Part shown: one piece after another, positions 6,527 to 60,754 of the stretch | Layout: each line of letters starts with the position of its first letter | How positions within the stretch are numbered: position 1 is the stretch's first letter | Source of the DNA: Chthonomonas calidirosea T49 | GTDB lineage: Bacteria; Armatimonadota; Chthonomonadetes; Chthonomonadales; Chthonomonadaceae | Assembly: GCF_000427095.1 (NCBI RefSeq) | Contig: NC_021487.1 | Coordinates: 3,023,241-3,087,240 of the forward strand | Length of the DNA: 64,000 nucleotides | Reading direction: 5' to 3' | The notes under the pieces: generated by a model | Told to the model about the DNA's origin: nothing | What the model saw: only the letters and a program-made list of their open reading frames with translations | Database searches by the model: none | Program-made: the position numbers and the translations under genes

Positions 6527-6630
6527 TAGCGCTCTTAAAAGAACAGAAAAGATCAGTAAGTTCATCCTTGATCGAATGACCTAACACGTTGTGAATCCGT
6601 GTAAAAAACGTCGTGAGGAGGAACACGAAA

Positions 6631-26727: not shown

Positions 26728-28170
26728 TTAAGGGAGCAGCTTGAGGTAGAGCGCACCTAAGTTGTTGGCCGTATAGAGGGCGTTGATTCCACTTTGTTGC
26801 AGCAACTGCAGGTTCGCAAGGTTTACGCTCTCTTGGGCGACGTTCACGTCCATAATGTTGGAAACGGAGGCGCTAAGATTGGTTACCGCGTTCGACAGAT
26901 AGTTTTGGGTGGCCTGTAGGGTATTCTTCTGAAAGTTACCTAGCTCTGCCGCATAGGTGGTGACCTGACTGAGGGCCGCGTTTGCTATCTGCACAGCATT
27001 GGCAGCTCCGGTGGGCGTGGTGACGTTAATGCTTTGAAGCGACTGGCCTGGAATAGCCGTGGTGCCGAGTTGGGAGGCCTGCATGTTTTGAAAGGCGAAG
27101 CTCACCGTCTGTCCTACATTGGCACCGATCTGGAATTGGGCCGGATTGGAAGAGATATTAGCCACTGCGACATTGCTTGTGCTTGTGGAGTTGCCAGATG
27201 CCGTGAGAAGAATTTTATTGCCGCTGGAATCGCTGAGGAGCAGCCCAGAATCGGTTGGGTTGACACCGCCGGTAAAATTGACGGTTTGGGCGACCGTGCT
27301 GCCGTTGATCTGAGTCATGGCAGTAACAGTTGCCAGAGCGTTCTGGCCTACTGCGGTGGTTGCGTTGCCGGCGGCGATGATGGCGCCGGCGCTGTCGCTC
27401 TCCGAGATGGAGTAGTTGCCGCCGTAGTTGGTTTGGGTCAGAACGATTTTACCTCCGCTGAAGCCAGCGGACACGCCTGTTTGACTCGATATCTGGTTGA
27501 TGCTATCTATGAGCGATTGCACCGTTTCACCGGAGCTAACGGTTATGCTCTGCCCATTGATAGTAACCGTGCCAGAGTTGGCAATAGTTGCATTCGCACT
27601 AGCGTAGTTTACTGTGCCGGTAATAGTGGCCATTGTGGCGGCTTGCGTCACCGTGATCGTGACGTTGCCCGACTGGGTTACCCCGTTGGCAAAGGTGCCA
27701 CCAAAGCTGGCCGACGCAATGAGGTTGCTATTGGTAACGGAGGCGCTTGTGCCGGCTGTGCCGTTGAGCAAGCCAATGCCGTTGAACGTGGTATTATTCG
27801 CGATGTTGTTGATGGCGGCTATGGCCGACTGAATGGCCTGCTGGTCGGCAGCGGCATTGCTGGGGTTGCTTTGCGCATCCAGCGCGCTGGCCTGAATATT
27901 TTGCACAAGGGTGACGATCTGTTGTACCGCCCCAGAGGCGGTTTTTACCTCGTTGACGTCGTTCTGTATATTGGAAAGGGCTTGGTTCATGCCATTCACT
28001 TGGGTTTGTAAGTTGGTGGCGATGAGAAAGCCAGAGGGGTCATCTGCCGGACTGTTGATGCGAAGACCTGAGCTAAGGCGAAGCAGCGACTGCTGAATCG
28101 CCGAGTTCGTCTGATTAAGGTAGTAACTGGCCGCAAGCGCGTTCAGGTTGGTGACGAAAGAGAAATCCAT
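26728..28170 (-). CDS. flagellin
   Basis: A 480-residue flagellar filament protein. The conserved N-terminal D0/D1 helices (NLNALAASYYLNQTN, LLRLSSGLRINSPADDPSG, NIQNDVNEVKTASGAVQQI) and C-terminal helices (NYLSNAVTNLSASVSNIMDV, LQLLQQSGINALYTANNL) are both present. Between about 145 and 345 lies a Ser/Thr/Gly-rich variable surface domain. There is no signal peptide, as expected for type III export. AGGAG precedes the ATG by about 10 bases. It is the only flagellar gene in the window. I found no clear sigma28 or sigma54 promoter upstream. Hag or fliC would be the usual name. Confidence 0.95.
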   Translation of the reverse strand: MDFSFVTNLNALAASYYLNQTNSAIQQSLLRLSSGLRINSPADDPSGFLIATNLQTQVNGMNQALSNIQNDVNEVKTASGAVQQIVTLVQNIQASALDAQSNPSNAAADQQAIQSAIAAINNIANNTTFNGIGLLNGTAGTSASVTNSNLIASASFGGTFANGVTQSGNVTITVTQAATMATITGTVNYASANATIANSGTVTINGQSITVSSGETVQSLIDSINQISSQTGVSAGFSGGKIVLTQTNYGGNYSISESDSAGAIIAAGNATTAVGQNALATVTAMTQINGSTVAQTVNFTGGVNPTDSGLLLSDSSGNKILLTASGNSTSTSNVAVANISSNPAQFQIGANVGQTVSFAFQNMQASQLGTTAIPGQSLQSINVTTPTGAANAVQIANAALSQVTTYAAELGNFQKNTLQATQNYLSNAVTNLSASVSNIMDVNVAQESVNLANLQLLQQSGINALYTANNLGALYLKLLP

Positions 28171-43578: not shown

Positions 43579-43738
43579 GCAGATGACACAGCTCTTATGC
43601 CGTGTCGGGCACTCCCTCCCGACTCGTTTTCCCCCCTTTTTAAGGGCCGATGTGCGGTCTGTTCATGCGAACCGAATAGTGTGTACACCACCCCCAATAG
43701 AAAAGCTGTTACCAGCAGCTTAAAAGGAAGTGTGTAAC

Positions 43739-46700
43739 ATGTGTCCAGAATTAGGAGGTAGACTAGCATTGAAGCGCGCTCGTAGCCGTTTTTATGGCCT
43801 TCATCTGCTTCTGTTCGTCCTGATAGTGGCCTTGTATCCGTTGAATGCACAAGCCCAAAGCCGGGCGCGTAGCCCAAAAAGTACGAGACCACAAGATATC
43901 CTACAGTCGCTTCGCTCTGTGGGGCCACGACCTCCTCATGTGTTCTATCCGCCGAACATGTCGAAACTTCCCGATTGGGTTCTGAAAACACGCTGGACAG
44001 GCGAGGGCCGAGCGCCTGGTGATCAAAATGTGGTAAGACAGACCATCCTGCTTACGAAAGCCAATCCCAATCTTCCTTTCTCTAATGTGCCAGCTACCTC
44101 CTCAAACGAACACCCTTTCTGGACCTCAGATGAAAAGTATATCTACTTCGATAGCAACCGAAATAGTAGTACCGACTCGACCCCAAATGCCACCAATACC
44201 TACAACATCTTTCGTATGTTTCCTGATGGCACCGGGGTAACCCAGGTGATACCAGCAAATATCAACCAAATTGAGCCTGCTGTTTCCAGGGATGGAAGTC
44301 AGCTCGCTTTTGTTGGTGGAGGTACTTTTGTATCGGGGGCGGGCACCGCACATCCGGTAACCACGGGTTTCAACCTTTATCTTTATAATCTGAACCAGGG
44401 TGGGGCCGCAACCCCGGTTACGAACACAACCGCCGGTTTTACTTTTGCAGATGTTCGCCATCCTACTTGGTCACCGGGGGGCGATGCGATCGCCTTCGCG
44501 GGACAGCTGCAAGGTCAAAATGTCTACCATATCTTCCTTTACACTTTGGCAAATGGGGTGATAACGCAGTTAACCACGGGCGCCTCAAACGATACGAGCC
44601 CCGCATGGTCGCCAGATGGGCACTTTATTGCTTTTTCCACAAATGCTTCCGGCTTTGCATCAGGCGCCGCTCCAGTAGTTGCCGCCGGTACGGTAAGCAA
44701 CTACGATATTTGGGTTATCACGACGAACCTCAACGCTCTTCAGGCTACCCGCATTACCAATTTTGCAGTAGGAGGGCAACAAAGCAATAACTATAACCCA
44801 GCCTGGAGTTCTCTTAATATTGATCCCCTTGGTATAATCCCAATCCAGCCAAATCCTTCGAATAATGGGTTGACTCAATCGGAGCTCATGATCGCTTTTG
44901 CTAGCGATCGCGAAGATACGAATAACGACGGTATTGCGAATGCGATCAATCCAAACCATTCTACCGATATCTACTGGGTGCAGACGCCGGAACAGTCGCC
45001 TTCGACGGGCGTTTTTACGATAGCTGGAGAGAGCAGCGGCAATCCTGCTCATAAGCTACAAACGAGCCAGCCGGATACCGCAATGGACCCCAGTGAGCCA
45101 AGTTATAATTTTGATAAATCCCATGTTTCCAATGAGGATTTCCCAACATGGCCACAGTATAAAAACTCATATCGTATCGTGTTCCAAAGCGATCGAGGTG
45201 GAACCTTAGAGATTTGGGGTTCCACGATCATAGATATAGATGCCCCGGCGCTTCTGAAGTACGATGCTTCGACCAACGAGATAGTGCACCTCGAAAAAGA
45301 GGTCGGAACGCATACAGGTATCTCACAAAGGCAGTTTAATCCTGGGGATACGGTGCGTATTTGTGTGCGGGCTGTTGATTACGAGAGTGGGGTGAACTCT
45401 GTTTATGTACAGATCAAATGCCCTAACGCCATGCAACAAAGTCCGGACAATGTGGAGCATCGTATCTTTAATATCGGTGGTGGAGCTGTAGGGGGATCTG
45501 GGACAAGTGTACAGTCCATTTTTAATGCGGGTAGTGGCGGTTTCCCGATTGAAGAGGACTACCAGGCGGTTAACGCAAATGGCCCCATGACGGGTGGGGT
45601 ACCTCAATTCCGTCCTTTCAACACCCCTAATCTCTACACTCCAGGAGTTGACGACCTTGATGCCTTTAGCGGTGCCGCGCATCCACCCGATCGATTCTGG
45701 CTGCAACTCTATGATGATGGGCCGACAACTCAAGGGGGGCATGAACCTCCTGGTGAGGTGGCTGGAGATGGCGTTTACACGGCGGACTGGACAACCCCTG
45801 TTAACTTCCCAAGTGACTGGGTGATTGACGTTATCATCTACAACAACGCAGTAGATCCCTTTAACCCGCAAAAGCGGTCTGATTGGCGCATCTATGACAA
45901 TGTATGGGGCTTTACCACTCAGCCTTTCCAAGCTCTTCACAATGTGCTCTATGTAGATGACTACGATAGCGGGCAAAAGTTCTTCTCCAACCGGTTTGGA
46001 TCAGGCAACTTCCAAGCGAGCAACACAGCAGGCTTCAACGGTATTCCTACGGAAAGTTATATGACTGAGTTTACTCCAGCGCTTTTCCCAGATACCTACC
46101 AGGCAGGAACAGGCCAACCGTCTCCACTCTTAGATTTTATGAACACTCTTGGTCCTCAATCCTATGGAGCTAATGTAGGAGATGGCGCATATTACGACCC
46201 ACTCGATGACGATGGCTCTGGGGTACCCCCAACACAAAGCTATGATATTTGGCGTATTCAGTGTCGCGGGCCTATACCCCAATCCGTGCTCAACGCCTAT
46301 CTGCCTTACTATGAGAACATTCCGCCAGATCCGTCCAATAAGAATTTACCGACAAAAGTTCTTGTGGCAGAAAAGTGTGTGCTCTGGCATTCGCCCTATT
46401 CTGGGGATCTGTTCGTAGGGCCAGGTACCATCCTCGATCAACAGACTCAGACGATGCTGGCCAACTTTGTGCAAGCCGGTGGAAGACTGTTTATCAATGG
46501 GCAAGATATCGCCTGGGGGCTTACACTAGGTGGTACGCAGCAAAACTCGTTCCTATCCAATGTGCTCTACTGCAACTACGTTGCAGATGCAGCAAATACC
46601 GATCAGATCAATCTTCAAGGGGCACGCGGCTCTGCTCCAATCGCCTGGGAGACTTGGTATGGCGGAATACACCGCTATCCACCCTATCCGCCAATGGATA

Positions 46701-49633
46701 CGCCAAACAATCCTCCAGGAAATAACAGCCCTATTTATATCGGGCCCATACTCAACCAAGCCTATACCGCGGCTGCCCATGATACTTGGGACGACACGAC
46801 AGTGCCTGTACTGATTGGCTTTAACGACGTCGTGACGTTTAATCCGCCCAGCACCGTACAGTCAGGCGTTGATGGAGTTTATAGCAACGGCGCAGGTCCA
46901 GCGATTATGTGGTATGCCAACCCCACCACAGGGGGACGTGTGGTCTATTCACCCTTTGGATGGGAAGGCATCGTTCCGAAGACGATTGCGCTGCAGGGTA
47001 CGCCAACTCCTTACCTGTGCATTAATCTACGCATGGAGCTTATTCACAATGTGCTCGACTTTTTGCGCACAGGCTATATCTACGGTTCCGTGCGTGCATA
47101 CAACGGGGGAGCCGCTGTACCACTGGCTAATGTGCTGGTTCGGGCTTTTGATGCACAAGGTAACGAAGTTTCGACGGCTCTGACTCAAGCAGATGGCTCC
47201 TATATTCTTCGGGGGCTTTATCCGAATGGCATCTACGCGCTAGATGCCATTGCACCAGGCTATGTCACACAGCATGCAACGGGTATTGAGTTTCATGGAG
47301 GTTATGGTGTTCGTAACGACTTCTTCATGAGCCAAGCCCAGCCCGGCGTGATCTCGGGTAAAATCACCGATGCCGTCACGGGACTACCTGTTCCGAATAT
47401 TACAGTTGAGGCACTCGATATCTCCGGTGCCGCACCGGCAAACACCTTCTTTACCGGCGTGTCGGCTCCTGACGGCACCTACTTCATTAAAAATGTGCCA
47501 GCGAGCTCCTACGAGGTATTTCCGATTTTGCCGGCTCAAGGCTATGTATCGAGCAATCCGGCCAACTACGGCGCACCTCCCGGTCAGCCGGTTGTGGTGG
47601 CTCCGAGCCAAACCGTTAGCGGCAAAGATTTTCAGTTGATCCAGGCTCCCGGCACCATCACTGGCAAGGTAGACATCGCGGACGCCAACGGAAACGACAC
47701 CGGTCAGCCTTTGCCTGGTGCGACCATTACGGCAACATCAACCTCCAATTCACAGACACAGTTTGTTTCTGCACCGCCTACCGGTGGCTCGCAGAGCGAC
47801 GGAACCTTTACTATTCCCAATGTGTCACCTGGGCAGTATTCGGTTACCGCAACCGCTCCAGGCTATAATCTCGTTAAAAGCGTTACCGTAACGGTAACTA
47901 CGCAGCAGACGACCTCTGGGGTTTTGCTGCTCATGTCGCCGGTACCACCAGGAAGCATCTCTGGATTGGTCGCTACCTCCCTAGGTATTCCAGTGGGTGG
48001 TGCCACCATTACGGTAACAAACAGCGCAGGCACAGTTGTTGCAACGGGAACTTCCGGTGCGGTTCAAACCACCACGATTAACGGACAAACCTACACTTAC
48101 AACTATAAGATTACAAATGTTCCAGCGGGCGCCACGGTAACCGTGTCGGCAAGTAAAGCTGGCTATACGACGAAGACGTCCGCTCAAACCGTGACGGTTA
48201 CCTCGAACCAAGAGACCCAAAACGTCAACTTCACGCTCGATCCGTTGGCGGCTTTTGGGTCAAATCTCGCTCTAGTTTCCTCTCCTTACTACTTCACCAC
48301 GGATGGGAACCCGGCTAGCCCGCCGTTGGATGTGGCAACGTTACTGGGAGTGCCCTCTTCCGACGTCAGCAGCGGGGCCTTCCAATTCACTTACTGGAAC
48401 GCTTCCACCCAATCTTATGTAAACTATCCGACGCCGCCGGCAAATGCTTTCCGGCTTGGCCTCGGCTACTTCCTGCGTGATACCGACACGGCTACCGTGA
48501 TGGCCATTACGAATCCAAACGGAATTACGGCTCCAAAGGATGCCAACGGTAACTTTCTGCCCTTCAACATTCCGCTGCAGCAGGGCTGGAATATGATCGG
48601 GGATCCTTTCACCTCCTCGGTCAACTTCAACGGCCTTCAGGTACAGCTCCAAAACGGTACCCTTATTAACGTAACGGCCGCTCAGGCCGGCCCGAACCCA
48701 GTGCTGGGGGCTGCCCTGTGGACTTATCAGAATGGGAACTACGCGGTCGTCTATACGCTAGACCCATTCCGCGGCTACTGGCTCTACGCTTTTCAGCCCT
48801 GCACGCTCGTTGTGACACCAAGTGCTCAGCAAGGGCGTGGAGCCTTCTCGGCAGCAGGACGCGCTTTGGAGTTCACTTCCGGTGGAAATGGGAACTGGAA
48901 ACTCGACATTGTGGCAGCCACCGATCAATCGAATTCAAAAGCGACAATAGGGGTTTGTAATGGGGCAACCGATCAGTACGATCGTTACAAGATGTTAACG
49001 CCACCAGCTCTCGGCAGAAATGCCGTAGTGCTTGGCATCGATCATAGCGATTGGGGCCGACAAGCAGGGCTGTACAGTGTGGACGTGCGCTCTGCAGCTG
49101 CAACGACATGGAAGTTCGTGCTTCAGGCAAATACCGGTGGGCAACCCGTTACGCTCACGTGGCCAAACCTCGCTATGGCGGGTAAGCACGACTTTATCTT
49201 CACCGATCTCGATAATGGCACCAGCTTTGAACTACACGATCGCTCAAGTTACACTGTTACCATCGGACAGGGGACGACAACGCATCATTTCGAGATAGAT
49301 GTCCTCCGTGCAACACGCAGTCCCTTGCAGATACTGAACGTGACGGCTCTGATGAATACCAATAGGGCTACAGGACAGTCCGACTCGGCGACGATCAGCT
49401 ATACCCTGACCACTGCCGCTAAGATGGTTGTACGAATCTTAAATAACGGCCGTGTGGTGCGCACCTTAGAGGCGAACACAACACGAGCGGCAGGGACAAA
49501 TCAGGTTGTTTGGGATCTGAAGTCGGATAGTGGTATTCGCGTGCCGACGGGGGTCTATCAAGCCCAGGTCATTGCCACGGATGCCAATGGACATCAGGTT
49601 CCACGGGTGGTGCCCTTGGTGATCACACGGTAA
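43739..49633 (+). CDS. giant exported PD40/TolB-propeller, Ig-like and FlgD-like tail protein
   Basis: A 1964-residue exported protein. After a signal peptide (hydrophobic stretch then NAQAQS), residues about 120-500 hold TolB/PD40 beta-propeller blades (HPFWTSDEKYIYFDSNRN, SPAWSPDGHFIAFSTN). About 720-1100 include a GATase/ThuA-like domain (VQAGGRLFINGQDIAW). About 1110-1500 hold four carboxypeptidase-regulatory-like sandwiches. From about 1505 the C-terminal module shared with two later genes begins: GWNMIGDPF, then NWKLDIVAATD, then a FlgD-like Ig domain ending VPLVITR. Starts are ambiguous: ATG 43739 has AAAAGGAAG 8 bases before it, and TTG 43769 has AGGAGG and gives a cleaner signal peptide. 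It is probably a cell-surface or secreted structural protein. Confidence 0.85.
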   Translation: MCPELGGRLALKRARSRFYGLHLLLFVLIVALYPLNAQAQSRARSPKSTRPQDILQSLRSVGPRPPHVFYPPNMSKLPDWVLKTRWTGEGRAPGDQNVVRQTILLTKANPNLPFSNVPATSSNEHPFWTSDEKYIYFDSNRNSSTDSTPNATNTYNIFRMFPDGTGVTQVIPANINQIEPAVSRDGSQLAFVGGGTFVSGAGTAHPVTTGFNLYLYNLNQGGAATPVTNTTAGFTFADVRHPTWSPGGDAIAFAGQLQGQNVYHIFLYTLANGVITQLTTGASNDTSPAWSPDGHFIAFSTNASGFASGAAPVVAAGTVSNYDIWVITTNLNALQATRITNFAVGGQQSNNYNPAWSSLNIDPLGIIPIQPNPSNNGLTQSELMIAFASDREDTNNDGIANAINPNHSTDIYWVQTPEQSPSTGVFTIAGESSGNPAHKLQTSQPDTAMDPSEPSYNFDKSHVSNEDFPTWPQYKNSYRIVFQSDRGGTLEIWGSTIIDIDAPALLKYDASTNEIVHLEKEVGTHTGISQRQFNPGDTVRICVRAVDYESGVNSVYVQIKCPNAMQQSPDNVEHRIFNIGGGAVGGSGTSVQSIFNAGSGGFPIEEDYQAVNANGPMTGGVPQFRPFNTPNLYTPGVDDLDAFSGAAHPPDRFWLQLYDDGPTTQGGHEPPGEVAGDGVYTADWTTPVNFPSDWVIDVIIYNNAVDPFNPQKRSDWRIYDNVWGFTTQPFQALHNVLYVDDYDSGQKFFSNRFGSGNFQASNTAGFNGIPTESYMTEFTPALFPDTYQAGTGQPSPLLDFMNTLGPQSYGANVGDGAYYDPLDDDGSGVPPTQSYDIWRIQCRGPIPQSVLNAYLPYYENIPPDPSNKNLPTKVLVAEKCVLWHSPYSGDLFVGPGTILDQQTQTMLANFVQAGGRLFINGQDIAWGLTLGGTQQNSFLSNVLYCNYVADAANTDQINLQGARGSAPIAWETWYGGIHRYPPYPPMDTPNNPPGNNSPIYIGPILNQAYTAAAHDTWDDTTVPVLIGFNDVVTFNPPSTVQSGVDGVYSNGAGPAIMWYANPTTGGRVVYSPFGWEGIVPKTIALQGTPTPYLCINLRMELIHNVLDFLRTGYIYGSVRAYNGGAAVPLANVLVRAFDAQGNEVSTALTQADGSYILRGLYPNGIYALDAIAPGYVTQHATGIEFHGGYGVRNDFFMSQAQPGVISGKITDAVTGLPVPNITVEALDISGAAPANTFFTGVSAPDGTYFIKNVPASSYEVFPILPAQGYVSSNPANYGAPPGQPVVVAPSQTVSGKDFQLIQAPGTITGKVDIADANGNDTGQPLPGATITATSTSNSQTQFVSAPPTGGSQSDGTFTIPNVSPGQYSVTATAPGYNLVKSVTVTVTTQQTTSGVLLLMSPVPPGSISGLVATSLGIPVGGATITVTNSAGTVVATGTSGAVQTTTINGQTYTYNYKITNVPAGATVTVSASKAGYTTKTSAQTVTVTSNQETQNVNFTLDPLAAFGSNLALVSSPYYFTTDGNPASPPLDVATLLGVPSSDVSSGAFQFTYWNASTQSYVNYPTPPANAFRLGLGYFLRDTDTATVMAITNPNGITAPKDANGNFLPFNIPLQQGWNMIGDPFTSSVNFNGLQVQLQNGTLINVTAAQAGPNPVLGAALWTYQNGNYAVVYTLDPFRGYWLYAFQPCTLVVTPSAQQGRGAFSAAGRALEFTSGGNGNWKLDIVAATDQSNSKATIGVCNGATDQYDRYKMLTPPALGRNAVVLGIDHSDWGRQAGLYSVDVRSAAATTWKFVLQANTGGQPVTLTWPNLAMAGKHDFIFTDLDNGTSFELHDRSSYTVTIGQGTTTHHFEIDVLRATRSPLQILNVTALMNTNRATGQSDSATISYTLTTAAKMVVRILNNGRVVRTLEANTTRAAGTNQVVWDLKSDSGIRVPTGVYQAQVIATDANGHQVPRVVPLVITR

Positions 49634-49651
49634 AGGTTTAGGAGATACTTT

Positions 49652-52078
49652 ATGTATAGGGGTCTCGATCGACCGCTACAAAGCGGGCAACTCGAAGAAG
49701 GAGATAAAAGGGTGAACGCTTTTGGCAGAAATATTCTATCTCGCATCGGCACATGGCTGTTCGCAACGGCTTTTCTAGGAGCCGGCTTGCTGGGAGCCGT
49801 GAAAGCGCACGCGCAAACGCAGCAACTGCGTGTAATGGTAGGCGACTTTGTGGACGAGCGTGCCCATTCCGCCGGTAGTCAGCTCGCCATCGCTGCCAAG
49901 AAAGACATGTATAACGAACTGGTCAGCGTAGGAGCCTCTAAGTTCGCTCCGATAGATCCAGACGAGCTAATGGCACAGGCGAAATCTTTAACGCCACCGC
50001 TTCCCACGCCGAGCGACCCCTACGGCCCGTACGGTTACAGTCTTTTTGACTACACGCGACTTGGGGAAGCCGTGGGCGCATCCGCTGTCTTGTCCGGGCG
50101 TGTTCTCGTAACAAGTGGAGCGGGAGCCTCGGGAAAACTGGTGCTTGAGGCCACGCTAACCAACCTTGTTGCGCAAGCACCGATTAATGGGGCTCAAGTA
50201 GAGGTGGCAATAGCAAATGAGCCCGGCGAAAACGCCGGCTCTCAGGAGGCCGTTCTAAAGGCGGTGGACGATGCAGCCCTCTCAGCGGTCACACAGATGG
50301 TCGCAAGACAACTGCTTACAGCTACCGTGCTGCAGATCAGTCGTGGGCTTGTGGTGATCAATAAGGGAACGCGCGATGGCTTCCACGATGGCGATGATAT
50401 CGCCGTGTTGCGGGAGCTGGCCGGTGGGCGCCTTGTAAAGGTAGGAGTTATCCGTATTATGCGCGCCTATGCGGATAATTCAGAGTGCGAAATTCGTGAA
50501 AATACCGGTGGCATCAGTCCCGAAGATATCGGATTAGTACTCTATCGTCCGCAATATGTGTATACCCTAACAGGTGGCAAAAGCATTAATCGGGTGAATA
50601 CCCGTATTAATCTCAGCGCCATTGGCAGCACGTTGGCCGCCTTGGGTCTAGGGGTTCTGCTTGTATCGGCTTCGAAAGGAGGACAGGCGACCACGACCAA
50701 TGTAGTGGCTGAAGCCACCTCGCTAAATGGAGCGCCAGAGGTTCGCGTTACCTGGGGCGATAATATCTTTGGTCAAGCCGGGGTCCTGCAATATCATGTT
50801 TACCGCCTGCCAGATTTCCCACCAGGCTCTCCAGGGATATCCACAAACAACGGGAATGGTAACGGTACAGGTACTGGTGGTGGCACAGGGACCGGTGGTG
50901 GAACAGGTACTGGTGGCACAGGTACCGGAGTTGTTGCTGCTTCAGGTGTTCCTGTGGCGGTCGTGCCTCCCTCTTCGCATGTCTACCTTGATCAGCCCAC
51001 ACCTTTCGATAGCTATGCAACTATTGGGGGGTTCATGACAGGCTTTAACGGCTCTGCCGCAACAGGTAGTTTAACAAGTGGAACTACTGGTACAGGCACT
51101 GGCACAGGTACATCTACAAGCGGAGGATGTGGCTTCACAAGCATCAGCGGCTTTCTAGATACAGGCTTTACACCGGGTAAGTCCTACCAATATGAGGTGA
51201 CTGCTATTCTGGCTCGCCAACAACCTATTGTTAGCAGTGGTGGCAATACGGGGGGAGTTGGAGGAATTGGTACTGGCACCGGTGGAATCGGTACGGGTAC
51301 CGGCGGAATTGGTACAGGTACTGGTATTGGAACAGGTACTGGTATTGGAACAGGTACCGGTATTGGTAATGGAACTGGTACCGGCACAGGGACTGGTTCC
51401 AATGTGCTCTGCATCGAGACGGACCCCGTGCCGTCCAACTTTGCGACGCCCATCACCCCTGTCAATCCCACAGCGCCAGCTGCGGGTGCCTCTGTAGATA
51501 TTCGCTCGTTTAACCCCACGTGGACGAGCCGGGTAGGTGCCGACCTCTTCGTAGTGGAAGTGTCTACCGATCGCACCTTTAAGAACCCAAAAATCATCTA
51601 CCAGGTACAGGTCTTCTCAACGGCACCTACCCAGGATGGCGTTGCACAAACGTTGCCCGCGCCAGTGGACCTTACCAAAGCGCCCCAACTGCTGGCTGAC
51701 CCAACGTTTGCGGCCTTTGTGAGCGGTTCCGGAGGTTCGGGAAGCACTCCAACCACGCCTACGCTCTACTACCGGATCGGCGCACGGCACGATGAGGATA
51801 TCCCAGGCCCTGTGAACTGGATCAGTCAGGCTGCTAATGATCCCAACCGTAATTTCCGCTTTGTCTACAGCGATCCCGTTCAGTTCACTCCCACCCCGCT
51901 GCCGCCACCGCCTCCAGGCAAAAAGGCGAGCTTGGCTGCTGCTGTGCTGAACGCAAATGGCAGCCGGGCGGCCGTGTTACATCCGGTGATGCCTCGATCG
52001 GTGGGTATTATCCCGGGTGTAAGCCATCCGACGACACCTCAACAGGTGCTAAACGGGCGAGGGCGTGAACGGCACTAA
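49652..52078 (+). CDS. exported CsgG/FlgT-like protein with Gly-Thr repeat linkers
   Basis: A 808-residue protein. The signal peptide ends KAHAQ. About 50-210 resemble a CsgG/TolB-N-type domain (RVMVGDFVDERAHS, LGEAVGASAVLSGRVLV). About 230-300 resemble the FlgT C-terminal type (GLVVINKGTRDGFHDGDDIAVL). A hydrophobic helix lies near 322-345 (AIGSTLAALGLGVLLVSAS), then fibronectin-like segments broken by three Gly-Thr-rich linkers. It lacks the C-terminal module of its neighbours. CsgG-like folds often form outer-membrane export parts, so an envelope role in this cluster is plausible. Starts at ATG 49652 (AGGAG, 7 bases) and GTG 49712 (GAAGGAG) are both good. Confidence 0.7.
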   Translation: MYRGLDRPLQSGQLEEGDKRVNAFGRNILSRIGTWLFATAFLGAGLLGAVKAHAQTQQLRVMVGDFVDERAHSAGSQLAIAAKKDMYNELVSVGASKFAPIDPDELMAQAKSLTPPLPTPSDPYGPYGYSLFDYTRLGEAVGASAVLSGRVLVTSGAGASGKLVLEATLTNLVAQAPINGAQVEVAIANEPGENAGSQEAVLKAVDDAALSAVTQMVARQLLTATVLQISRGLVVINKGTRDGFHDGDDIAVLRELAGGRLVKVGVIRIMRAYADNSECEIRENTGGISPEDIGLVLYRPQYVYTLTGGKSINRVNTRINLSAIGSTLAALGLGVLLVSASKGGQATTTNVVAEATSLNGAPEVRVTWGDNIFGQAGVLQYHVYRLPDFPPGSPGISTNNGNGNGTGTGGGTGTGGGTGTGGTGTGVVAASGVPVAVVPPSSHVYLDQPTPFDSYATIGGFMTGFNGSAATGSLTSGTTGTGTGTGTSTSGGCGFTSISGFLDTGFTPGKSYQYEVTAILARQQPIVSSGGNTGGVGGIGTGTGGIGTGTGGIGTGTGIGTGTGIGTGTGIGNGTGTGTGTGSNVLCIETDPVPSNFATPITPVNPTAPAAGASVDIRSFNPTWTSRVGADLFVVEVSTDRTFKNPKIIYQVQVFSTAPTQDGVAQTLPAPVDLTKAPQLLADPTFAAFVSGSGGSGSTPTTPTLYYRIGARHDEDIPGPVNWISQAANDPNRNFRFVYSDPVQFTPTPLPPPPPGKKASLAAAVLNANGSRAAVLHPVMPRSVGIIPGVSHPTTPQQVLNGRGRERH
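50851..50928 (+). repeat. Gly-Thr coding low-complexity repeat 1
   Basis: Repeated GGTACAGGT/GGTGGCACA units encode alternating Gly and Thr as a flexible linker. Third-base variation shows selection on protein rather than recent DNA slippage. Confidence 0.85.
51267..51399 (+). repeat. Gly-Thr/Ile coding tandem repeat
   Basis: Short units encoding GTGTGI or GTGTGG repeat for about 130 bases. An 18-base unit (GGAACAGGTACTGGTATT) is nearly identical in three tandem copies, so copy number may vary. A shorter stretch of the same kind lies at about 51076-51118. Confidence 0.85.
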
Positions 52079-52088
52079 AATGCCGTCA

Positions 52089-52128
52089 GGAGAGATAGAG
52101 GCTCTGCAGGCAAATCCTCTATCTCTCC
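52089..52128 (+). terminator. 13-bp hairpin after CsgG-like gene, no T-tract
   Basis: GGAGAGATAGAGG (52089-52101) pairs perfectly with CCTCTATCTCTCC (52116-52128) around a 14-base loop. It starts about 10 bases after the stop codon. The tail AGCGGAC lacks Ts, so it may stabilise mRNA or pause rather than terminate. Confidence 0.6.
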
Positions 52129-52287
52129 AGCGGACAATCTATGTCAGGATATAGATATAGGTAAAAGCCAAACAGTGTGCTGCCTTTATAGGCTTTATCG
52201 GCGCTCCACGCCAACTCTGCGCTACCCCTCCTATCGTGGGTGGCGGGGCAGTGTCAACGACAACCGTCTGAACAAGGAGTTTGGGCT

Positions 52288-55200
52288 ATGGTGAAAAAAT
52301 TCGGACTTCTTATTCCTGTTTTAGCTTTGCTGCTCCTAACGAGTAACGCTGTAAGGAGCAGGGCAGATGGTTTGCCCGGGGCGCAAGCTGCCTTTGTGGA
52401 TGGACAAGTTGTTCTCTATTGCCAGCCCGGCACGTCGCAAAACGACGTGAACGCATTGGCCGCCAAAGTAAACGCGCAACAGGTCATTCCTCTGCTATTG
52501 AAGGATTGCTATGAGCTCATTTTGCCTGCCTCCAGTGCTACAGACGCTGGGACGTTAAATGCTGTTGCCACCTTGAAAGGAGACCCGCGCGTTCGTTGGG
52601 TGGGCCCTAACAAAATCTTTCATCTAATGGCATCGCCTCCAACAGCTACCCCTAACGATCCGTACTATACAAACGGAGATCAATGGCCGTTGCCTCAAAT
52701 TAACATGCCGGCCGCTTGGGCTATTGAAAAGGGCACGGCGAACGTCGCCGATATTGATACAGGATTCGATAATACCCATCCCGATCTCGCGGGGCAGTAC
52801 ATTTTGCCTGGTTATAACTCGGTGGATGGTTCAACCAACAACACGCCTAGCGGTACTGACGCTGCGAACCAGCATGGGGTAAGTACAAGTAGCATTATGG
52901 TTGCGATAACGAATAACGCCATTGGAATGGCCTCTATCTGTGGTTGGGGCACGACAAAATGCTTGGGAATTAAAGCTGGAGATGCAAATGGATTCACCGA
53001 AGCTGCACTGGTAAATGCCTCCCAGTACGTGTTGAATGTAGCACAACAAGACAATATTGTGGTGGTTAATGAAAGTTTAGGGGCACCCGGAGACCCTACA
53101 GATACGAGCGATCCTTATTATCAGGCGACCAAGGCTCTGAGCGATGCGGGGATCATTGTTGTGGTGGCTGCCGGTAACGATAGTTCCGACAATCATCAAA
53201 CAACACCCGCAGGATTTACTTTTCCCAATCTTCTCACGGTTTCCGCTCTAAATAGAAACTCGCAGCTTGCCTTTTACTCTAGTTTTGGAAAAGTGGATAT
53301 CTCTGCTCCTGGTGGCGAGCAAACATCGGCTACCGATCCAAATGGATTCTTGGTGGCTGTAAATGGCTCTTATGGTTTTGAACAGGGAACCTCTATGGCG
53401 GCTCCGGTGGTTAGCGGTGTTATTGCGCTACTACGCTCCATTCCCGCGGTAACACCAACAGCTGCTATTCAGGCGATCGAGCAGTCCGCAAACCATGTTA
53501 TTACCGGACAACAACAGGTTCCTGACCCCAAGTACGGTTATGGTGAGGTGGACGCCTATCAGGCTCTCTTGCGGGTGATAGGGCATGTTGAGGTGGATAG
53601 TCCTATAGGCATTGACAACGCTACGGGGCTTTCGACCGATCCTTCTGGCAATCCACCGCCTCCGGTAGAGACGCTGAAACCCACCTTTACCTTCGGGGTA
53701 CGCAATATCCCCCTTTCTAACATCAATATCGTTATCATGAACCCCGATGGAACAACTACTCCGTTGGTAACCAACGGGACTCCTGCGGCGGGGGTAACCA
53801 ACTTTTCCGTGAGTGGGGATACGACGAGCTCCTATCCTGTCTACTCTATCTCCTTCCGATATGCCTTTAACACAGTGCTCGCCTCCTCACAGATAACCGT
53901 TCAGATTACCGGCACTCCGACCAATCCGAATATCCCGACGCCCCAGCAGACGGTGACCTTCAATCTACAGCCACACCGATTCCCCGCTGGTCTATCGCTG
54001 ATCTCAATCCCCATCTATGAGAGCGCAACCGACTCGCCGTCGGGCTCCTTCCGCAACGATATTCGCCAGATACTGAGCGATCCGACCGCTGTGCTCTATA
54101 GTTGGGGAATACAACCTACTCTGAATAGTGCCGGTCAAGCGACCGCACAGGGCGTTTATACACCGACCCCTGGCACTGTAGGTGCCTCCGCCTCCTTCAC
54201 AGTGAGCGGCATACCGGCTTCCTCTACGCCAGCAACCAATCCGCCGCTAGGTCTAGGTTTCTTCTTAAAGACCACAGCCTCCGATATCTATCGGACTTAC
54301 GGCAACTACATTGCAAGTCAGTTCGTAAACATTCCACTCCATGAGGGATGGAACTTGGTTGGCGATCCGTTTCCATTTGCTGTAAGTTTTAACATCTGCT
54401 CCTTCCAGACCCCTGGAGGGAATCTCTATTCTGCTCAACAAGCCGCCGATGCCCATCTGATACTGCCTTTTATCTACCGCTATGTCGGTGGCAGCTATCA
54501 GTTCGACACGCTGCCGCAAGGGCTTTTGAGACCATGGGAAGGAAGCTGGATCTATGTGATTCCGGCTAACCCAAATAGTTTAAGCACAAACTATGTGCTT
54601 ACGTTGGTGGTGCCACCCACGGGAAGTATTTCGGATACATTAGGAAGATCAACAACCGCTAATACGCCCTCGGCGGGTGGGCCAAACAACTGGCGCCTGC
54701 AGCTCGTGGCGACCTCCGGCAGCGCTGTAGACGGGCATAATTATATCGGAGTGTCGGCTCAACAGACCGATCCGAGTTTCACACGCGCACCAAAGCCGCC
54801 TCAGTTAATGAATGATATATCGTTAAGCATTCTGGAACAAGGCCGAGGTGTTCAGAAAGAGCCTTATGCCATGTCACTTCATGCTCCTGCGGCTACGCAG
54901 ACGTGGCAAGTGCTTGTGCAGTTTGCCAATAAAGGCACGCCCGTTACCGTATCTTGGCCCAACGTCGCGCAGATTCCCCATAACATCAAGCTTGTACTAA
55001 CCGACCAAACAACCGGGCAGCAGATAGATATGCGCACGCGAAGCGCCTATCAATTCATGCCGGCTGCCCAGGAGACAGCACGGCAGTTCCAAATTACCGC
55101 TTCTACGGTTTCAACAAGTGGGCGCGCACTGATCACCGATCTGTTTGTAGACCCGGTGAACTCCAACCGTGCTGCAGGTGCGGCGGGCTTTGATATCCGC

Positions 55201-55437
55201 TATAATATCTCCCGTGACGCCAATGTGGATATCGAGATACTGGCCTCTAACGGACGAGTCATCGGTAGGGCACAGCCGTCAAGAGCGGTAACAGCGGGTA
55301 CGAATCGTGCTTTCTGGAATGGGCGCGACCTTGCTGGAAATCCGGTTCCAACCGGTGTCTATATGGTGCAGTTGCGGGCCGTCACAGCCTCGGGCGATGT
55401 GACACGGCAGACCGTCCCGCTAACCATCACTCGTTAA
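52288..55437 (+). CDS. exported subtilisin-like serine protease with shared C-terminal module
   Basis: A 1049-residue S8 family protease. The signal peptide is followed by a fervidolysin-like pro-region (VDGQVVLYCQPGTSQNDVNA). The catalytic triad is Asp157 (IDTGFD), His196 (QHGVSTSS, a variant of the usual HGTHVAG) and Ser369 (GTSMAAP), with oxyanion Asn in VVAAGND. An Ig-like linker follows. The C-terminal module then runs from about 590: GWNLVGDPF near 685, NWRLQLVATSG near 801, and a FlgD-like domain from about 954 ending VPLTITR. ATG 52288 has AAGGAG 8 bases upstream, so I reject the GTG at 52240. It may process the other exported proteins of the cluster, which is inference. Confidence 0.93.
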   Translation: MVKKFGLLIPVLALLLLTSNAVRSRADGLPGAQAAFVDGQVVLYCQPGTSQNDVNALAAKVNAQQVIPLLLKDCYELILPASSATDAGTLNAVATLKGDPRVRWVGPNKIFHLMASPPTATPNDPYYTNGDQWPLPQINMPAAWAIEKGTANVADIDTGFDNTHPDLAGQYILPGYNSVDGSTNNTPSGTDAANQHGVSTSSIMVAITNNAIGMASICGWGTTKCLGIKAGDANGFTEAALVNASQYVLNVAQQDNIVVVNESLGAPGDPTDTSDPYYQATKALSDAGIIVVVAAGNDSSDNHQTTPAGFTFPNLLTVSALNRNSQLAFYSSFGKVDISAPGGEQTSATDPNGFLVAVNGSYGFEQGTSMAAPVVSGVIALLRSIPAVTPTAAIQAIEQSANHVITGQQQVPDPKYGYGEVDAYQALLRVIGHVEVDSPIGIDNATGLSTDPSGNPPPPVETLKPTFTFGVRNIPLSNINIVIMNPDGTTTPLVTNGTPAAGVTNFSVSGDTTSSYPVYSISFRYAFNTVLASSQITVQITGTPTNPNIPTPQQTVTFNLQPHRFPAGLSLISIPIYESATDSPSGSFRNDIRQILSDPTAVLYSWGIQPTLNSAGQATAQGVYTPTPGTVGASASFTVSGIPASSTPATNPPLGLGFFLKTTASDIYRTYGNYIASQFVNIPLHEGWNLVGDPFPFAVSFNICSFQTPGGNLYSAQQAADAHLILPFIYRYVGGSYQFDTLPQGLLRPWEGSWIYVIPANPNSLSTNYVLTLVVPPTGSISDTLGRSTTANTPSAGGPNNWRLQLVATSGSAVDGHNYIGVSAQQTDPSFTRAPKPPQLMNDISLSILEQGRGVQKEPYAMSLHAPAATQTWQVLVQFANKGTPVTVSWPNVAQIPHNIKLVLTDQTTGQQIDMRTRSAYQFMPAAQETARQFQITASTVSTSGRALITDLFVDPVNSNRAAGAAGFDIRYNISRDANVDIEILASNGRVIGRAQPSRAVTAGTNRAFWNGRDLAGNPVPTGVYMVQLRAVTASGDVTRQTVPLTITR

Positions 55438-55611
55438 GAAGAAAGCGGTGCTTGAGTGTCTTTGGAGTTAGCAAGGACACCCAACGTGAAAATTTTAAGT
55501 GTCCCCCTCGCTGAGCGATGAAAATATACATGAGAACTGTCCTACCTGCTCGGGCGGAATCGCTCCCCCACCGCTCGGCAAAATAAAGGGGTTCAGGGAG
55601 GTTATTTCTGG

Positions 55612-58600
55612 ATGCGGAGAAAAACATCCTTATTTGGACGTCTGACAACTACAGGCATCCTACTTTGCGCCGTCATCGGTTTGGGCATAGTGCAAAAAGC
55701 ATGTGCGCAAGGATTGGGTGATCCTTTCCCGCCTGGGTATGGATACTACACCGGTAACAACGCAAACGACCTGCTCTATACCTTTACGGCCAATGGGATG
55801 GCGCTGACAATCGGAATTGGGCAGAATCAGGGGGGCGCTTTGGGCCTCTATACCGCCTCTAGCAACGACCCTGTGTTCGACCCAAGCGACACGATCGCGC
55901 CTTATTTTCCATTAAACGCGGTTCAAATTACAGACCCAGCAACGGGACAACAGTTTACCGCCTATCTGGGAACCCATATTTTCGTGCGGATTGATGGTGG
56001 TTTTTCAACACTGACTCCTCTGGGCTACGATGCCATCTTTGGTGATCAGAAGTTAGGGCAGTGGATTGAGGCACCGCAACAGGTGGGGAATCATATCGAG
56101 GCAAAATGGCTTTCGCAACCAGTGATCACGAACACTGGCGGCGGCACCGGTGGTGGTACAGGCGGCGGCACTGGTGGCGGTACTGGAGGTGGTACAGGGG
56201 GCGGTACCACAACCGTTCTTCCACCAGCAATCGAGGTAGACCTTGTTGCCTCTTTCGTGCATACGCAGTGCCGTCTGCAGATAACCGTTAAAAACGTGGA
56301 TACAAAAGCCCATACGGTAAGCATTGGCCTATTGGAGGAGCTTTCCGGCAACCCTCAATCGTCGTTTCTTAACTTTGGAACACCGCTCTACCTGTATCCA
56401 AATACCTATGCCATTCACCACGAAACAGCGCTTTATGGAGCGCAGATCCCCAGCTACTTCTACTCCGCCGCTAGAAATACTTTCACGGGCGTGACAAATG
56501 CCTTGGTATATCGAACGATCAAGGGAACCGTGTCAAACTCCCCTTATGGACAAGACCCAACCTTCGCGCAAGCTTTGCCGCCTTCCCGTATGATCGTGGG
56601 CAACTTGATATCCATGGAGGGAAACTTAGGAGGAACGGCACCTAATCCTCGTATTTACAATGAGTTCTGGCTCTACGATAGCGCGACACCCATACCTCTA
56701 CTGGGCATTACGTTGCTCGACCCAACCCAACGCATTGATCAGCCCAACTCTGAGAGTATGGGGTTGGGGCTCTATTGGGATAATATTCAGGTTCAGCCTA
56801 CCGTCTCTAAGACGATCGTGACCTACTTAGGCGATAACAGCTGCAACTTCGCTTTTGGCCAGCCGCTTGCGCTTGCGGTAAGCGCTCCACAGGCTCTACA
56901 GATCTCTACATCGGCCAATCAGTCGGTATTTGCTGCCCCAGGAGCATCAGGAACAAGCCCGCAGTTTAAGATTAGCGCCTATGTGGATAATACAACGGAT
57001 CTGATCAATCCTAATGCCATTGCCCTTAGCCCTGTGACGGTCAGCATTAACCTACCACCGGGATTGCAGTTGGTGACTCCTCCATCTGGTGGTTTTCAAG
57101 ATAGTGTAAACAACCCAAACAATGCTGCCACGGTTACCCTCCCCTCGTTAGCGTCAGGACAGGAACAAGAGGTGCAGTGGGTGGTTACCCCAACCGGAAC
57201 AGTCTCAGGGCCGCAGGATGTGCTGGTGTCGGCCCAGCCAGGAAACTTTGGAAACGGCGTGGTCGTGCGGCGTACCATAGATATACCAGCGCCTGCTACG
57301 TTTACTCTTCGAGGTAACGTTACAACCCAAAATCACTATGTAATGCTAAGCATACCTCTACAAACCGGCCCAACACCGCCTTCCCAGGTGCTCTTCCCAA
57401 CACTGCCATCTCAACAGGTGGCTCCCGATCTGGCACAGTGGGACCCTGTGAATCTCATCTACAACTCTATCTCTCAATTCTCGCTCGGGAAGGCCTTCTG
57501 GATTCTTAATCGCCTCGCTAGCGATCAGCAGATCACGCTGAACACCGCGGCCTATCCGCCTCTGCTAACCAATCAGCAGTTCACTGTGAACTACCCGCAA
57601 GGTTGGAACCAGATCGGCGATCCCTATATCTACCCGGTCAACTTTGGAGAGGTTCAAGTATTTGACCCGAGTACCGGACAGACGTTCTCTATGCAGGATG
57701 CGGCCTCTCCGCAAAACCATCTCATTCTGCCCATTGCGTTCTACTACGATACCTCCAATCCAGATCCAACGCAGTGGCAATATGTGATATTGCCAAGTCT
57801 CGGCTTCACCATGCAGCCCTACCAAGGCTACTGGATCTACGTGCTCAAGAAGAACCTATCGTTCATCTATTCTGGGGTGACTCTACCAGGTAGTAATGTT
57901 ACCAAAGCGGCCGCGGTCTCGACGCTTCAGAGCCGAGCTGCCACCGATGATTGGAAACTTCAACTCTCTGCCGCTGCGGCAGATGGGGTAGATAACACGA
58001 CGATCATTGGGGTCGCGCCGCAAGCTACCGATAGGGCGGACTTCTTCAAGTATCCAAAACCGCCTTATATCAATAAACAGCTGACGATGGAGATCACCCA
58101 CCCAGAGTGGAATGGAGCTGTCTATAGTGTTGACCTGCGATCGCCAAGCCTCACTCAGAAAACATGGAATGTGGTGATCCAGTCCGTTAAACCTTCTGAG
58201 GCCGTCACTCTCCAGTGGTCTAACCTAAGCCGCAGTGTGCCACGAACGTGGAAGCTCACTTTGACGGATCCAGCCACTGGAACACAGTTCGATATGCGCA
58301 CACGCTCCGGCTATGTGGTTCATACCGATGCCACAGGGCGCGCCACGGTGCAGATTACGGCTAGCCCCGCTAACCCAACGCCAAGCGTGCGCATCCTCTC
58401 CTTCGTTGTCAATGCGCCTACCCGTGCTGCAAGCGGTACAACAGCACCCGTGGAGCTGGATTACAGTATAGCCGGTACCGGCGATACCCACGTGCTGGTG
58501 CGCAACTCACATGGCCAGGTCATTCGCAACCTTACCCCGGTAGCCACACGCAACACGGCAAACGGTGTAGAGGGGAAAGCCGTGTGGGATATGAAGACTC

Positions 58601-58707
58601 AATCGGGCACCGTGGTTTCAACCGGGGTCTATACCATGGATCTAGTGGTAGTAGCACCTGATGGTACTCAGACCCATCAGACACGTGTGTGCGTTATCAC
58701 ACGCTAA
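55612..58707 (+). CDS. exported Gly-rich linker protein with shared C-terminal module
   Basis: A 1031-residue exported protein. The signal peptide (about 1-32, ending CAQG) precedes a beta-rich N-terminal domain. A perfect GGGT repeat linker follows at about 175-200, then another sandwich domain (about 200-450), a DUF11-like segment (VSINLPPGLQLVTPPSGG) and the shared tail: GWNQIGDPYIYPVNF near 663, DWKLQLSAAAADG near 780, and the FlgD-like Ig domain from about 933 ending VCVITR. No catalytic motif is seen, so a structural or adhesive role is likely. GGGAGG lies 10 bases before the ATG. It is flanked by the protease and the LptD-like gene. Confidence 0.82.
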   Translation: MRRKTSLFGRLTTTGILLCAVIGLGIVQKACAQGLGDPFPPGYGYYTGNNANDLLYTFTANGMALTIGIGQNQGGALGLYTASSNDPVFDPSDTIAPYFPLNAVQITDPATGQQFTAYLGTHIFVRIDGGFSTLTPLGYDAIFGDQKLGQWIEAPQQVGNHIEAKWLSQPVITNTGGGTGGGTGGGTGGGTGGGTGGGTTTVLPPAIEVDLVASFVHTQCRLQITVKNVDTKAHTVSIGLLEELSGNPQSSFLNFGTPLYLYPNTYAIHHETALYGAQIPSYFYSAARNTFTGVTNALVYRTIKGTVSNSPYGQDPTFAQALPPSRMIVGNLISMEGNLGGTAPNPRIYNEFWLYDSATPIPLLGITLLDPTQRIDQPNSESMGLGLYWDNIQVQPTVSKTIVTYLGDNSCNFAFGQPLALAVSAPQALQISTSANQSVFAAPGASGTSPQFKISAYVDNTTDLINPNAIALSPVTVSINLPPGLQLVTPPSGGFQDSVNNPNNAATVTLPSLASGQEQEVQWVVTPTGTVSGPQDVLVSAQPGNFGNGVVVRRTIDIPAPATFTLRGNVTTQNHYVMLSIPLQTGPTPPSQVLFPTLPSQQVAPDLAQWDPVNLIYNSISQFSLGKAFWILNRLASDQQITLNTAAYPPLLTNQQFTVNYPQGWNQIGDPYIYPVNFGEVQVFDPSTGQTFSMQDAASPQNHLILPIAFYYDTSNPDPTQWQYVILPSLGFTMQPYQGYWIYVLKKNLSFIYSGVTLPGSNVTKAAAVSTLQSRAATDDWKLQLSAAAADGVDNTTIIGVAPQATDRADFFKYPKPPYINKQLTMEITHPEWNGAVYSVDLRSPSLTQKTWNVVIQSVKPSEAVTLQWSNLSRSVPRTWKLTLTDPATGTQFDMRTRSGYVVHTDATGRATVQITASPANPTPSVRILSFVVNAPTRAASGTTAPVELDYSIAGTGDTHVLVRNSHGQVIRNLTPVATRNTANGVEGKAVWDMKTQSGTVVSTGVYTMDLVVVAPDGTQTHQTRVCVITR
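56135..56208 (+). repeat. 12-base tandem repeat coding GGGT linker
   Basis: About six copies of GGCGGCACTGGT-like units encode Gly-Gly-Gly-Thr. Third-base changes separate the copies. The complementary strand encodes a Pro-rich open frame that I regard as a shadow. Confidence 0.88.
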
Positions 58708-58765: not shown

Positions 58766-60754
58766 ATGTGTTCGGCTCGAAAAAAGACTCTTTTTGCCTG
58801 TATTTTGATGACCATAGGCCTCTGTGGTCTTGCCCACCTAGCATTGGCCCAGCGGTCTATGGTCACTCTTTCCGCCACACGTGACGTGATTTTAGCTGAT
58901 GGAAAACAGCAGACGCTGATTATTGCCGATGTTCGTGATCAGAATGGGAACCCTCTGAATGGCGCAACGGTCCTTTTTCAAACCACTGCCGGAACGCTCA
59001 CCCAGACGCGAGTAACGGCCGTCGGCGGAATCGCGCAGACGCGACTTATCAGTGCGCCCTTCCCCACGGTGGCACAGGTTACGGCGATCGCCGAAGGGGC
59101 CGGGGTAGGGGCCTCGAATGCGCTTCAGATCGAGTTTACCAACGACCCGGAAGCGACCGTAGAGGGCAACAACTATGTGCTCTTTACCGGTAAGTATGTT
59201 GCCTATAGTGCGACCGATCGCATCATCGAGGCCTTCAGCGTCAATGGTGGCTCGGAGCTATCCTACCGCAACTTCGATATAAAAGCCGACCGCATTCAGT
59301 TTCATTGCGACGATAACGCTGTGGTTCGGGCAGCAGATAACATTACCCTGCGTCGAGGCAAACATGTCATTCACGCCATTCGCCTTTACTACAGCTTAGG
59401 TACGGGAATGGGCTATGCCATCGCAAAGTGGAACGGCAGCCTGCAACAGGTAGAGATAACAGGGGTTGATCTGCAGATGCAGAAACCTCACGGCATCGTG
59501 CCTCCAGCCTATTTTACAATGCCGCAAATGCAGGTGAAACTGGTGGTTGTGGCGCGCTCTATCGCCTATTTCCCGGGAGATAAACTTCAGTTCACCCGTC
59601 CGCGTTTTTTCCAAGATAATTTGCAGATCTTAAGCCTACCTTACTATGAGATGAGTCTCAACTCCGATCAGCTCTTCTCGGATCACTTCATTAGCGTGGG
59701 CTCACGAGGCTTTGGGCTTGAGCTTCCATTCTACTACGATCTCACACCGCGTAGTTCCGGTATTATCTACCTTCGCCATGACCAACAGCTGGGAAGAGGT
59801 TATTTTAGCACCGACCCCGGATGGTCTATTGATCTCATGCAGAGCTACTCGGGCACAGGAGAAATGCGCTACGAGGGGTCTTATGGCTTTACGGACTTAA
59901 CGCGTGGAGGGTGGGGGTTCCAGTGGACCCATACGCAGGAGTTTTCGGATAGCACGCAGGGAGCTTTCGCTTTAGATTTTCCTCATCATACAGGCCTTAT
60001 TGGAAGCCTCGACCTAAGTACCCACGGCAAACTCGGACGCTTGGGCATAGATTTTAATGGGGGACAGACGTGGGTTTCTCCTACGGAGACCTCATTGGAG
60101 GGCGACCTCTATCTTGAGACCAATCCAAGCTCCTACGGGTTTGCAAAAGGATGGCGCTATGTGTTTGGTACCCGCTACTCCTCAAACTACTTCCGCTCTT
60201 CTGGTAGTCTTGCCTCGTTGTCAAACGCCTCCTCGGAAGAGATAACTTGGCGAACTTTTCCGGCAATGCCGATGCTGTTAGATCGGCGGACAACCCTTAA
60301 CGTCTCGTTCACCCTGGGCCATATGTGGACAACAAACCATCTGACTGGCTTCACATCCCAAATCTCTTTGGGGCTGGATCGTACCCTTCCAAATGGTGGA
60401 GACATTAACTTTGGCTACGACTTTCTGTCTACGCCAAACCCGGCCTACAACGAGGACGGCAAGCATCGGGTTAGCATCACCTATCAGGTGGGGCGATCGA
60501 AGCACTTTGCTCTGGGGCTTTCCGGAACAGCGTTTTTGGATAGCCCGAGCGCCAGCTTCCTAGCCGATGCGGTCTATCGCCTCGATTCGCGATGGCGTCT
60601 GCTTGCCTCCGCCACGCTGCAACATGGCAATTTCCTAAATTATCAAGATTTTGAGCTCACTATTGGACGACGTATTGGGGCCCGCGAGTTGCAACTTACT
60701 TACTCTACCTACACAAAACGCATCTATATAGATCTAACGAGCACAAATTGGTGA
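58766..60754 (+). CDS. LptD/OstA-like outer-membrane barrel with N-terminal Ig-like domain
   Basis: A 662-residue exported protein. The signal peptide ends LALAQ. About 35-125 is an invasin-like Ig domain (VTLSATRDVILADGKQQTLI, GNPLNGATVLFQTTAGTL). About 140-270 resembles the OstA/LptA beta-jellyroll (NFDIKADRIQFHCDDNAVVR, ITLRRGKHVIHA). The rest is a beta barrel rich in aromatic strands (LELPFYYDLTPRSSGIIYL, GEMRYEGSYGF), as in LptD C-termini. LptD inserts lipopolysaccharide, but this gene sits among secreted proteins and carries an Ig domain that LptD lacks, so it may have another cargo. The ATG at 58766 fits the signal peptide. No ribosome site is clear. Confidence 0.72.
   Translation: MCSARKKTLFACILMTIGLCGLAHLALAQRSMVTLSATRDVILADGKQQTLIIADVRDQNGNPLNGATVLFQTTAGTLTQTRVTAVGGIAQTRLISAPFPTVAQVTAIAEGAGVGASNALQIEFTNDPEATVEGNNYVLFTGKYVAYSATDRIIEAFSVNGGSELSYRNFDIKADRIQFHCDDNAVVRAADNITLRRGKHVIHAIRLYYSLGTGMGYAIAKWNGSLQQVEITGVDLQMQKPHGIVPPAYFTMPQMQVKLVVVARSIAYFPGDKLQFTRPRFFQDNLQILSLPYYEMSLNSDQLFSDHFISVGSRGFGLELPFYYDLTPRSSGIIYLRHDQQLGRGYFSTDPGWSIDLMQSYSGTGEMRYEGSYGFTDLTRGGWGFQWTHTQEFSDSTQGAFALDFPHHTGLIGSLDLSTHGKLGRLGIDFNGGQTWVSPTETSLEGDLYLETNPSSYGFAKGWRYVFGTRYSSNYFRSSGSLASLSNASSEEITWRTFPAMPMLLDRRTTLNVSFTLGHMWTTNHLTGFTSQISLGLDRTLPNGGDINFGYDFLSTPNPAYNEDGKHRVSITYQVGRSKHFALGLSGTAFLDSPSASFLADAVYRLDSRWRLLASATLQHGNFLNYQDFELTIGRRIGARELQLTYSTYTKRIYIDLTSTNW

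Follow-up and report, generated by a model that had tools for sequence, protein, structure and literature searches.

A C-terminal tail related to T9SS sorting domains on unrelated exported proteins of Chthonomonas calidirosea and other Armatimonadota

Three neighbouring genes of Chthonomonas calidirosea (phylum Armatimonadota, kingdom Bacillati) encode exported proteins with unrelated N-terminal parts and a common C-terminal tail of three domains. The comparisons described below support the view that this tail and the type A sorting tail of T9SS are related but have diverged. We favour, with limited confidence, the reading that the Armatimonadota tail directs Sec-exported proteins to the outer membrane surface or attaches them there, probably via an outer-membrane assembly that is different from the one known from T9SS. 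Distribution and anatomy provide good support for the reading as a predicted cargo tail; tail recognition, surface location and the identity of the machine are what we infer from them. No account of a tail of this kind in Armatimonadota turned up in the literature. A T9SS-related tail thus occurs throughout Armatimonadota, far across the bacterial tree from the FCB group, with no detectable SprA channel. This leaves two options: either the tail predates or outlived the known machine, or a second outer-membrane export system exists.

Anatomy of the shared tail

The window, i.e. the whole stretch of DNA that was analysed, comprises 64,000 nucleotides (positions 3023241-3087240 of contig G000:C1, one contig of 3,437,861 bases or 3.44 Mb). 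Protein 1 is encoded on the + strand at 43769..49633 of the window; read from the TTG at 43769 it has 1954 aa, and longer starts are possible at 43730 and 43739. It consists of a Sec-type N-terminus, a PD40 propeller, CarboxypepD_reg repeats and then the shared tail (Pfam). Domain A of this tail, with the motif GWNMIGDPF, occupies approximately 48239..48889 (+ strand) according to an alignment with the tail model of protein 2. It is followed by domain B (NWKLDIV...PP...RSSY; approximately 48890..49309, +; BLASTP and tail alignment) and by domain C, a FlgD-like Ig domain ending in ITR (49310..49630, +; PF13860, 34.9 bits).

Protein 2 (52288..55437, +; 1049 aa) combines a Peptidase_S8 (S8) subtilase, in which the motif GTSMAAP is intact, with the same tail. 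An AlphaFold2 model of this tail, which is confident (mean pLDDT 87, pTM 0.79), places domain A at approximately 53962..54621 and domain B at approximately 54682..55116, both on the + strand. The FlgD-like domain C, again with an ITR end, spans 55117..55434 (+; PF13860, 35 bits). In a structure search with this model FlgD was the nearest fold for domain C (3osv, TM(target) 0.54), and a fold search with the whole A-B-C module returned only single-domain or generic multi-Ig matches. Protein 3 (55612..58707, +; 1031 aa, exported) has an N-terminal part for which a Pfam search gave no family match, a Gly linker and the shared tail. BLASTP and the tail alignment locate its domain A, with GWNQIGDPY, at approximately 57298..57945 (+) and its domain B at approximately 57946..58380 (+). 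Domain C with its ITR end (58381..58704, +) was identified by a profile match; its PF13860 score of 20.6 bits is below the cut-off, which is exceeded at the other two C-termini.

The original prediction that the three genes end alike was borne out: all are present as open reading frames that close with ITR and a stop. When the full-length proteins were compared by BLASTP, each pair gave one strong match, confined to the C-terminal parts, with E values of 4e-41, 1e-35 and 5e-42 and 29-32% identity; because of these values the likeness is not a matter of chance. The tails as cut have 464, 491 and 469 residues in proteins 1, 2 and 3. They share the order A (GWNxxGDP(F/Y)), B ((N/D)W(K/R)L...PP...RS-Y) and C, the FlgD-like Ig domain with ITR before the stop; GWN..GDP, W.L, GV, PP, RS.Y and the final ITR are invariant across the alignment. 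The motifs had been predicted correctly in their general pattern, but GLG(Y/F)FL and GDPF do not hold for protein 3, which has LGKAFWIL and GDPY, and the late motif reads DRSSY in protein 1. The N-terminal parts are indeed unrelated: PD40 with CarboxypepD_reg in one protein, Peptidase_S8 in another and no Pfam family in the third.

Distribution of the tail and its cargo

A profile built from the three tails found four copies in the whole C. calidirosea genome, three of them adjacent. The fourth (C1:1858180-1859352) lies in a protein of 1131 aa that ends in TIIR. Four copies are too few for one to infer general sorting from the C. calidirosea genome by itself. As a side observation, a gene at 9615-11255 of the window resembles an FG-GAP/UnbV_ASPIC-type gene (L019 391-2088) located immediately upstream of the gene with the fourth tail.

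Across the phylum the same profile matched 272 of 291 Armatimonadota genomes, in 146 of 156 genera; by our own count from the match table, about 234 of the 291 match with an E value below 1e-25. In some families, f9 and f35 among them, all matches were weak, and those in genome G021 cover domain A alone. Profile A2 was built from 50 members and was too diverse for a scan of the collection, for which A1 was used. Searched with A2, single genomes gave 61 (G246), 44 (G275), 29 (G007), 16 (G290), 15 (G216) and 14 (G183) matches, some of which are fragments; the f22 genomes G194 and G195 gave none. The G183 copy of the third tail gene is divided within the tail into two overlapping open reading frames that lie in different frames (L062 12872-14737 and 14724-15548).

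The tail proteins, most of them from G246, carry S8 subtilase, M6 peptidase, right-handed beta-helix or polysaccharide deacetylase domains, NHL and LVIVD propellers, CarboxypepD_reg repeats, or nothing known, and a BLAST grouping divided their N-terminal parts into several unconnected groups. The profile search that the original prediction had proposed found relatives in which the tail is joined to many different, unrelated N-terminal parts. These matches exclude the case of a tail confined to three adjacent genes with similar N-termini. A hydrophobic stretch near the N-terminus occurs in 86 of 108 tail proteins and in 92 of 221 other open reading frames of the same loci, a rough comparison that takes start codons as called. 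The tail would provide a ready list of likely surface proteins in a phylum with few cultured members.

The position of the tail is strict. All 104 complete tails end no more than 5 residues from the end of the match, and 99 of them have a final Arg. In an enlarged set the last residue is Arg in 113 of 119 distinct tails, while Arg makes up 9% of the domain residues; at each of the other positions among the last 12, the commonest residue reaches about 53% at most. The final Arg could serve the stability of the fold rather than be read.

The subtilase of the cluster was also considered as a general processing enzyme and rejected: GTS(M/L) is present in only 7 of 18 orthologues of protein 2, a lower bound obtained with a strict pattern. 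The orthologues without it are those in L054, L055, L056, L059, L064, L065 and L067-L071. Judging from this motif, the subtilase-type member of the locus may often be an inactive protease.

Relation to T9SS sorting domains and FlgD

The tail profile matches solved FlgD chains and residues 1083-1153 of the 1156 residues of P. gingivalis PorU, which are the PorU CTD. Among 50 tails, 49 match PF13860, 28 the PorU model and 6 TIGR04183 at E<=0.01. The TIGR04183 cut-off of 23 bits is not reached in the window; the tail of protein 2 scores 17.6 bits and those of proteins 1 and 3 give no match. Outside the phylum, sequences from Calditrichota (L169) and Cyclobacteriaceae (L171) are matched by the profile across A and B and on into a classic T9SS type A CTD of the YPNPF type; SprA is present in both of these genomes. 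In an Electryoneota sequence (L172), A-B is present, and the T9SS CTD that closes the protein is separate from it. In a profile-profile comparison the outgroup CTDs match domain C with 98% probability.

The tail thus resembles the T9SS type A tail in its FlgD-like Ig beta-sandwich at the extreme C-terminus, in the A-B-C order, in its unrelated Sec-exported cargo and in the basic residue of the last strand. It differs from it in that the window tails lack YPNPF, have Arg for Lys, and belong to a phylum outside the FCB group. A conserved Lys in the last strand of the T9SS CTD has been described in P. gingivalis, where RgpB without its last two residues stays in the periplasm, so that the C-terminal end is needed for export (PMC11285876).

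Domain C is also similar in fold and sequence to the Ig-like domain of FlgD (PF13860; PDB 3osv, 7eh9). FlgD, the flagellar hook cap, is a hook-assembly scaffold, whereas in the window the domain closes large exported proteins, and FlgD models match the Ig part only, far below their cut-offs of at least 230 bits. FlgD-like domains are common outside secretion signals. On another reading the tail would be a structural or adhesive surface module, either a stalk or a part that binds the envelope or matrix of its own cell; it would have been spread by duplication and would play no part in crossing the outer membrane, export taking another route such as T2SS. We consider this less probable than a sorting signal, but it carries appreciable weight. 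FlgD-like Ig domains, like other beta-sandwich domains, are typical of stalks; A and B are also found internally or with no C domain after them (L172, L170), as is domain A on its own in G021; the C. calidirosea genome has just four copies; and another route out exists, since T2SS genes are reported in the relative Fimbriimonas (PMC4072686). However, the C-terminal position without exception and the final Arg in 95% of tails across unrelated cargo fit a signal that is read better than a stalk, because a stalk could sit anywhere.

Returning to the sorting tail, the cargo would cross the inner membrane via Sec. Domain C, with its FlgD-like Ig sandwich and the Arg that closes the last strand, would then be recognised at the outer membrane, with domains A and B as folded spacers, and the cargo would be displayed at the surface or released.

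Search for a T9SS machine

SprA (TIGR04189) was not found over its cut-off in any of the 291 Armatimonadota genomes; as a positive control, the same model scored above it in each of the five outgroup genomes G291-G295, but not in G296, G297 or G298. Because SprA is undetectable in the whole phylum sample, the known T9SS translocon is probably not the machine. T9SS genes have been described as confined to the FCB group (PMC11285876). The original prediction had also called for PorU and PorV homologues, and neither was found in the C. calidirosea genome: the PorU model detected only the tails' own CTD and a weak match of 30 residues, and PorV was over the cut-off in just one of the 291 Armatimonadota genomes. 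The predicted sorting signal is supported as a cargo-type signal, by its unrelated N-termini, its C-terminal position and its kinship with the T9SS CTD, but not as part of a secretion system with SprA, PorU and PorV. The tail itself supports a relation to T9SS; for the translocon such a relation is contradicted, as far as the models are sensitive enough to tell.

It is improbable, but worth stating, that the machine is a true T9SS with a short SprA-like barrel translocon and PorV-like barrel shuttles, which have diverged too far for the family models. C. calidirosea has an exported protein of 1109 aa (L023 2696-6025, - strand; G000:C1 about 2092695-2096024) with a SprA motif of about 95 residues, GSVQVRVDNKPMTLGKDYTLDTDTGELQFL, at positions about 593-690. 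Relatives of 900-1100 aa, putatively in the outer membrane, are present in 151 of the 291 genomes, and the copy in G191 adjoins a tail gene. Against this, the motif covers only about 95 of the 2319 SprA positions (4%), on which ground the protein was rejected as SprA, and it also occurs in the outgroup genome G296, which has no SprA over the cut-off. PorV-like proteins are found, patchily, in 156 of 291 genomes. In favour of a role as shuttles, the barrels adjoin the Big_1 barrel described below in five of these genomes: L183 3982-4857 (G246), L184 16328-17416 (G216), L187 219-1076 (G206), L188 8895-9749 (G205) and L197 10074-11009 (G214). They are absent from C. calidirosea and from 16 of the 17 genomes of its family, and were rejected as general receptors there; the lack of PorU in C. 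calidirosea also speaks against a diverged T9SS.

The locus and its conserved neighbours

The order of the genes is kept across many families: an S1-like gene, coaE, propeller with tail, FlgT/CsgG-like gene, subtilase type with tail, third type with tail, often a second small FlgT/CsgG-like gene, and then the Big_1 barrel. In the four Fimbriimonadaceae-like genomes examined, only the third tail type is left at the locus, adjoining the barrel. A tree of 50 tails requires 2 label changes for the three types, the minimum possible; tails with the same type of cargo fall together, whichever organism they come from, and three of the four C. calidirosea copies are ancient syntenic paralogues. Because of this minimum the triplication is older than the spread of these families, and the phylogeny points to an ancient three-gene locus. 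A recent and simple duplication that produced three neighbours, with no further significance, would account for the adjacency of three of the four genome copies, but it is very improbable given that tails cluster by cargo type across families, that a one-genome grouping was not found and that relatives hold dozens of unlinked copies.

This compact conserved locus is a place to look for the machine, and its first candidates would be two neighbours of the tail genes. Between the tail genes lies an exported protein of 808 aa (49652..52078, +), conserved phylum-wide, with a FlgT/PelC/CsgG/LpoB-like N-terminal half, a Gly-Thr linker and an FN3-like part. Its fold was taken from a relative in L060 of 591 aa, whose model (pLDDT 81, pTM 0.47) matches FlgT (E 1e-10), PelC, CsgG and LpoB in a fold search. 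Like these outer-membrane-associated rings and regulators it has the predicted N-terminal-half fold; unlike them it has extra FN3-like domains, and no lipobox was noticed. The second neighbour (58766..60754, +; listed ORF start 58661) is a conserved outer-membrane-type protein with an N-terminal Big_1 domain. It is LptD/OstA-like in part, being barrel-like with an aromatic last residue, and 1 of 14 members matches OstA_2; in contrast to LptD/OstA-type barrels it has the Big_1 domain and no LptD family match.

Both proteins are candidates by position only, because they are near-universal in the phylum and occur in the tail-less families f22 and f23; the Big_1 barrel is present in 278 of 291 genomes. 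A role of the barrel as a tail-specific translocon, and of the FlgT/CsgG-like gene as a tail-specific component, is weakened accordingly by this distribution. The nine genomes without a tail match in these families (G193-G201) keep the Big_1 barrel, and eight of the nine keep the FlgT/CsgG-like gene, which makes them helpful in a search for the partner of the tail. We regard it as rather doubtful, though conceivable, that Armatimonadota have a separate outer-membrane system for protein export or display, which reads a T9SS-type tail with its near-obligatory C-terminal Arg but has a translocon of another kind; this might be a ring of the FlgT/PelC/CsgG fold together with the Big_1 barrel, both from the same ancestral locus.

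A second, smaller FlgT/CsgG-like gene precedes the Big_1 barrel directly in L058 (16103-16774), L059 (15094-15852), L067 (4457-5662) and others; none was found at this place in the window. Elsewhere in the window there is a flagellin gene (26728-28170, - strand; PF00669 and PF00700), beside which no other flagellar genes were noticed. Two pilin-like proteins (6613-7479 and 13749-14606) have near-identical starts with a leader of the type IV pilin/T2SS type.
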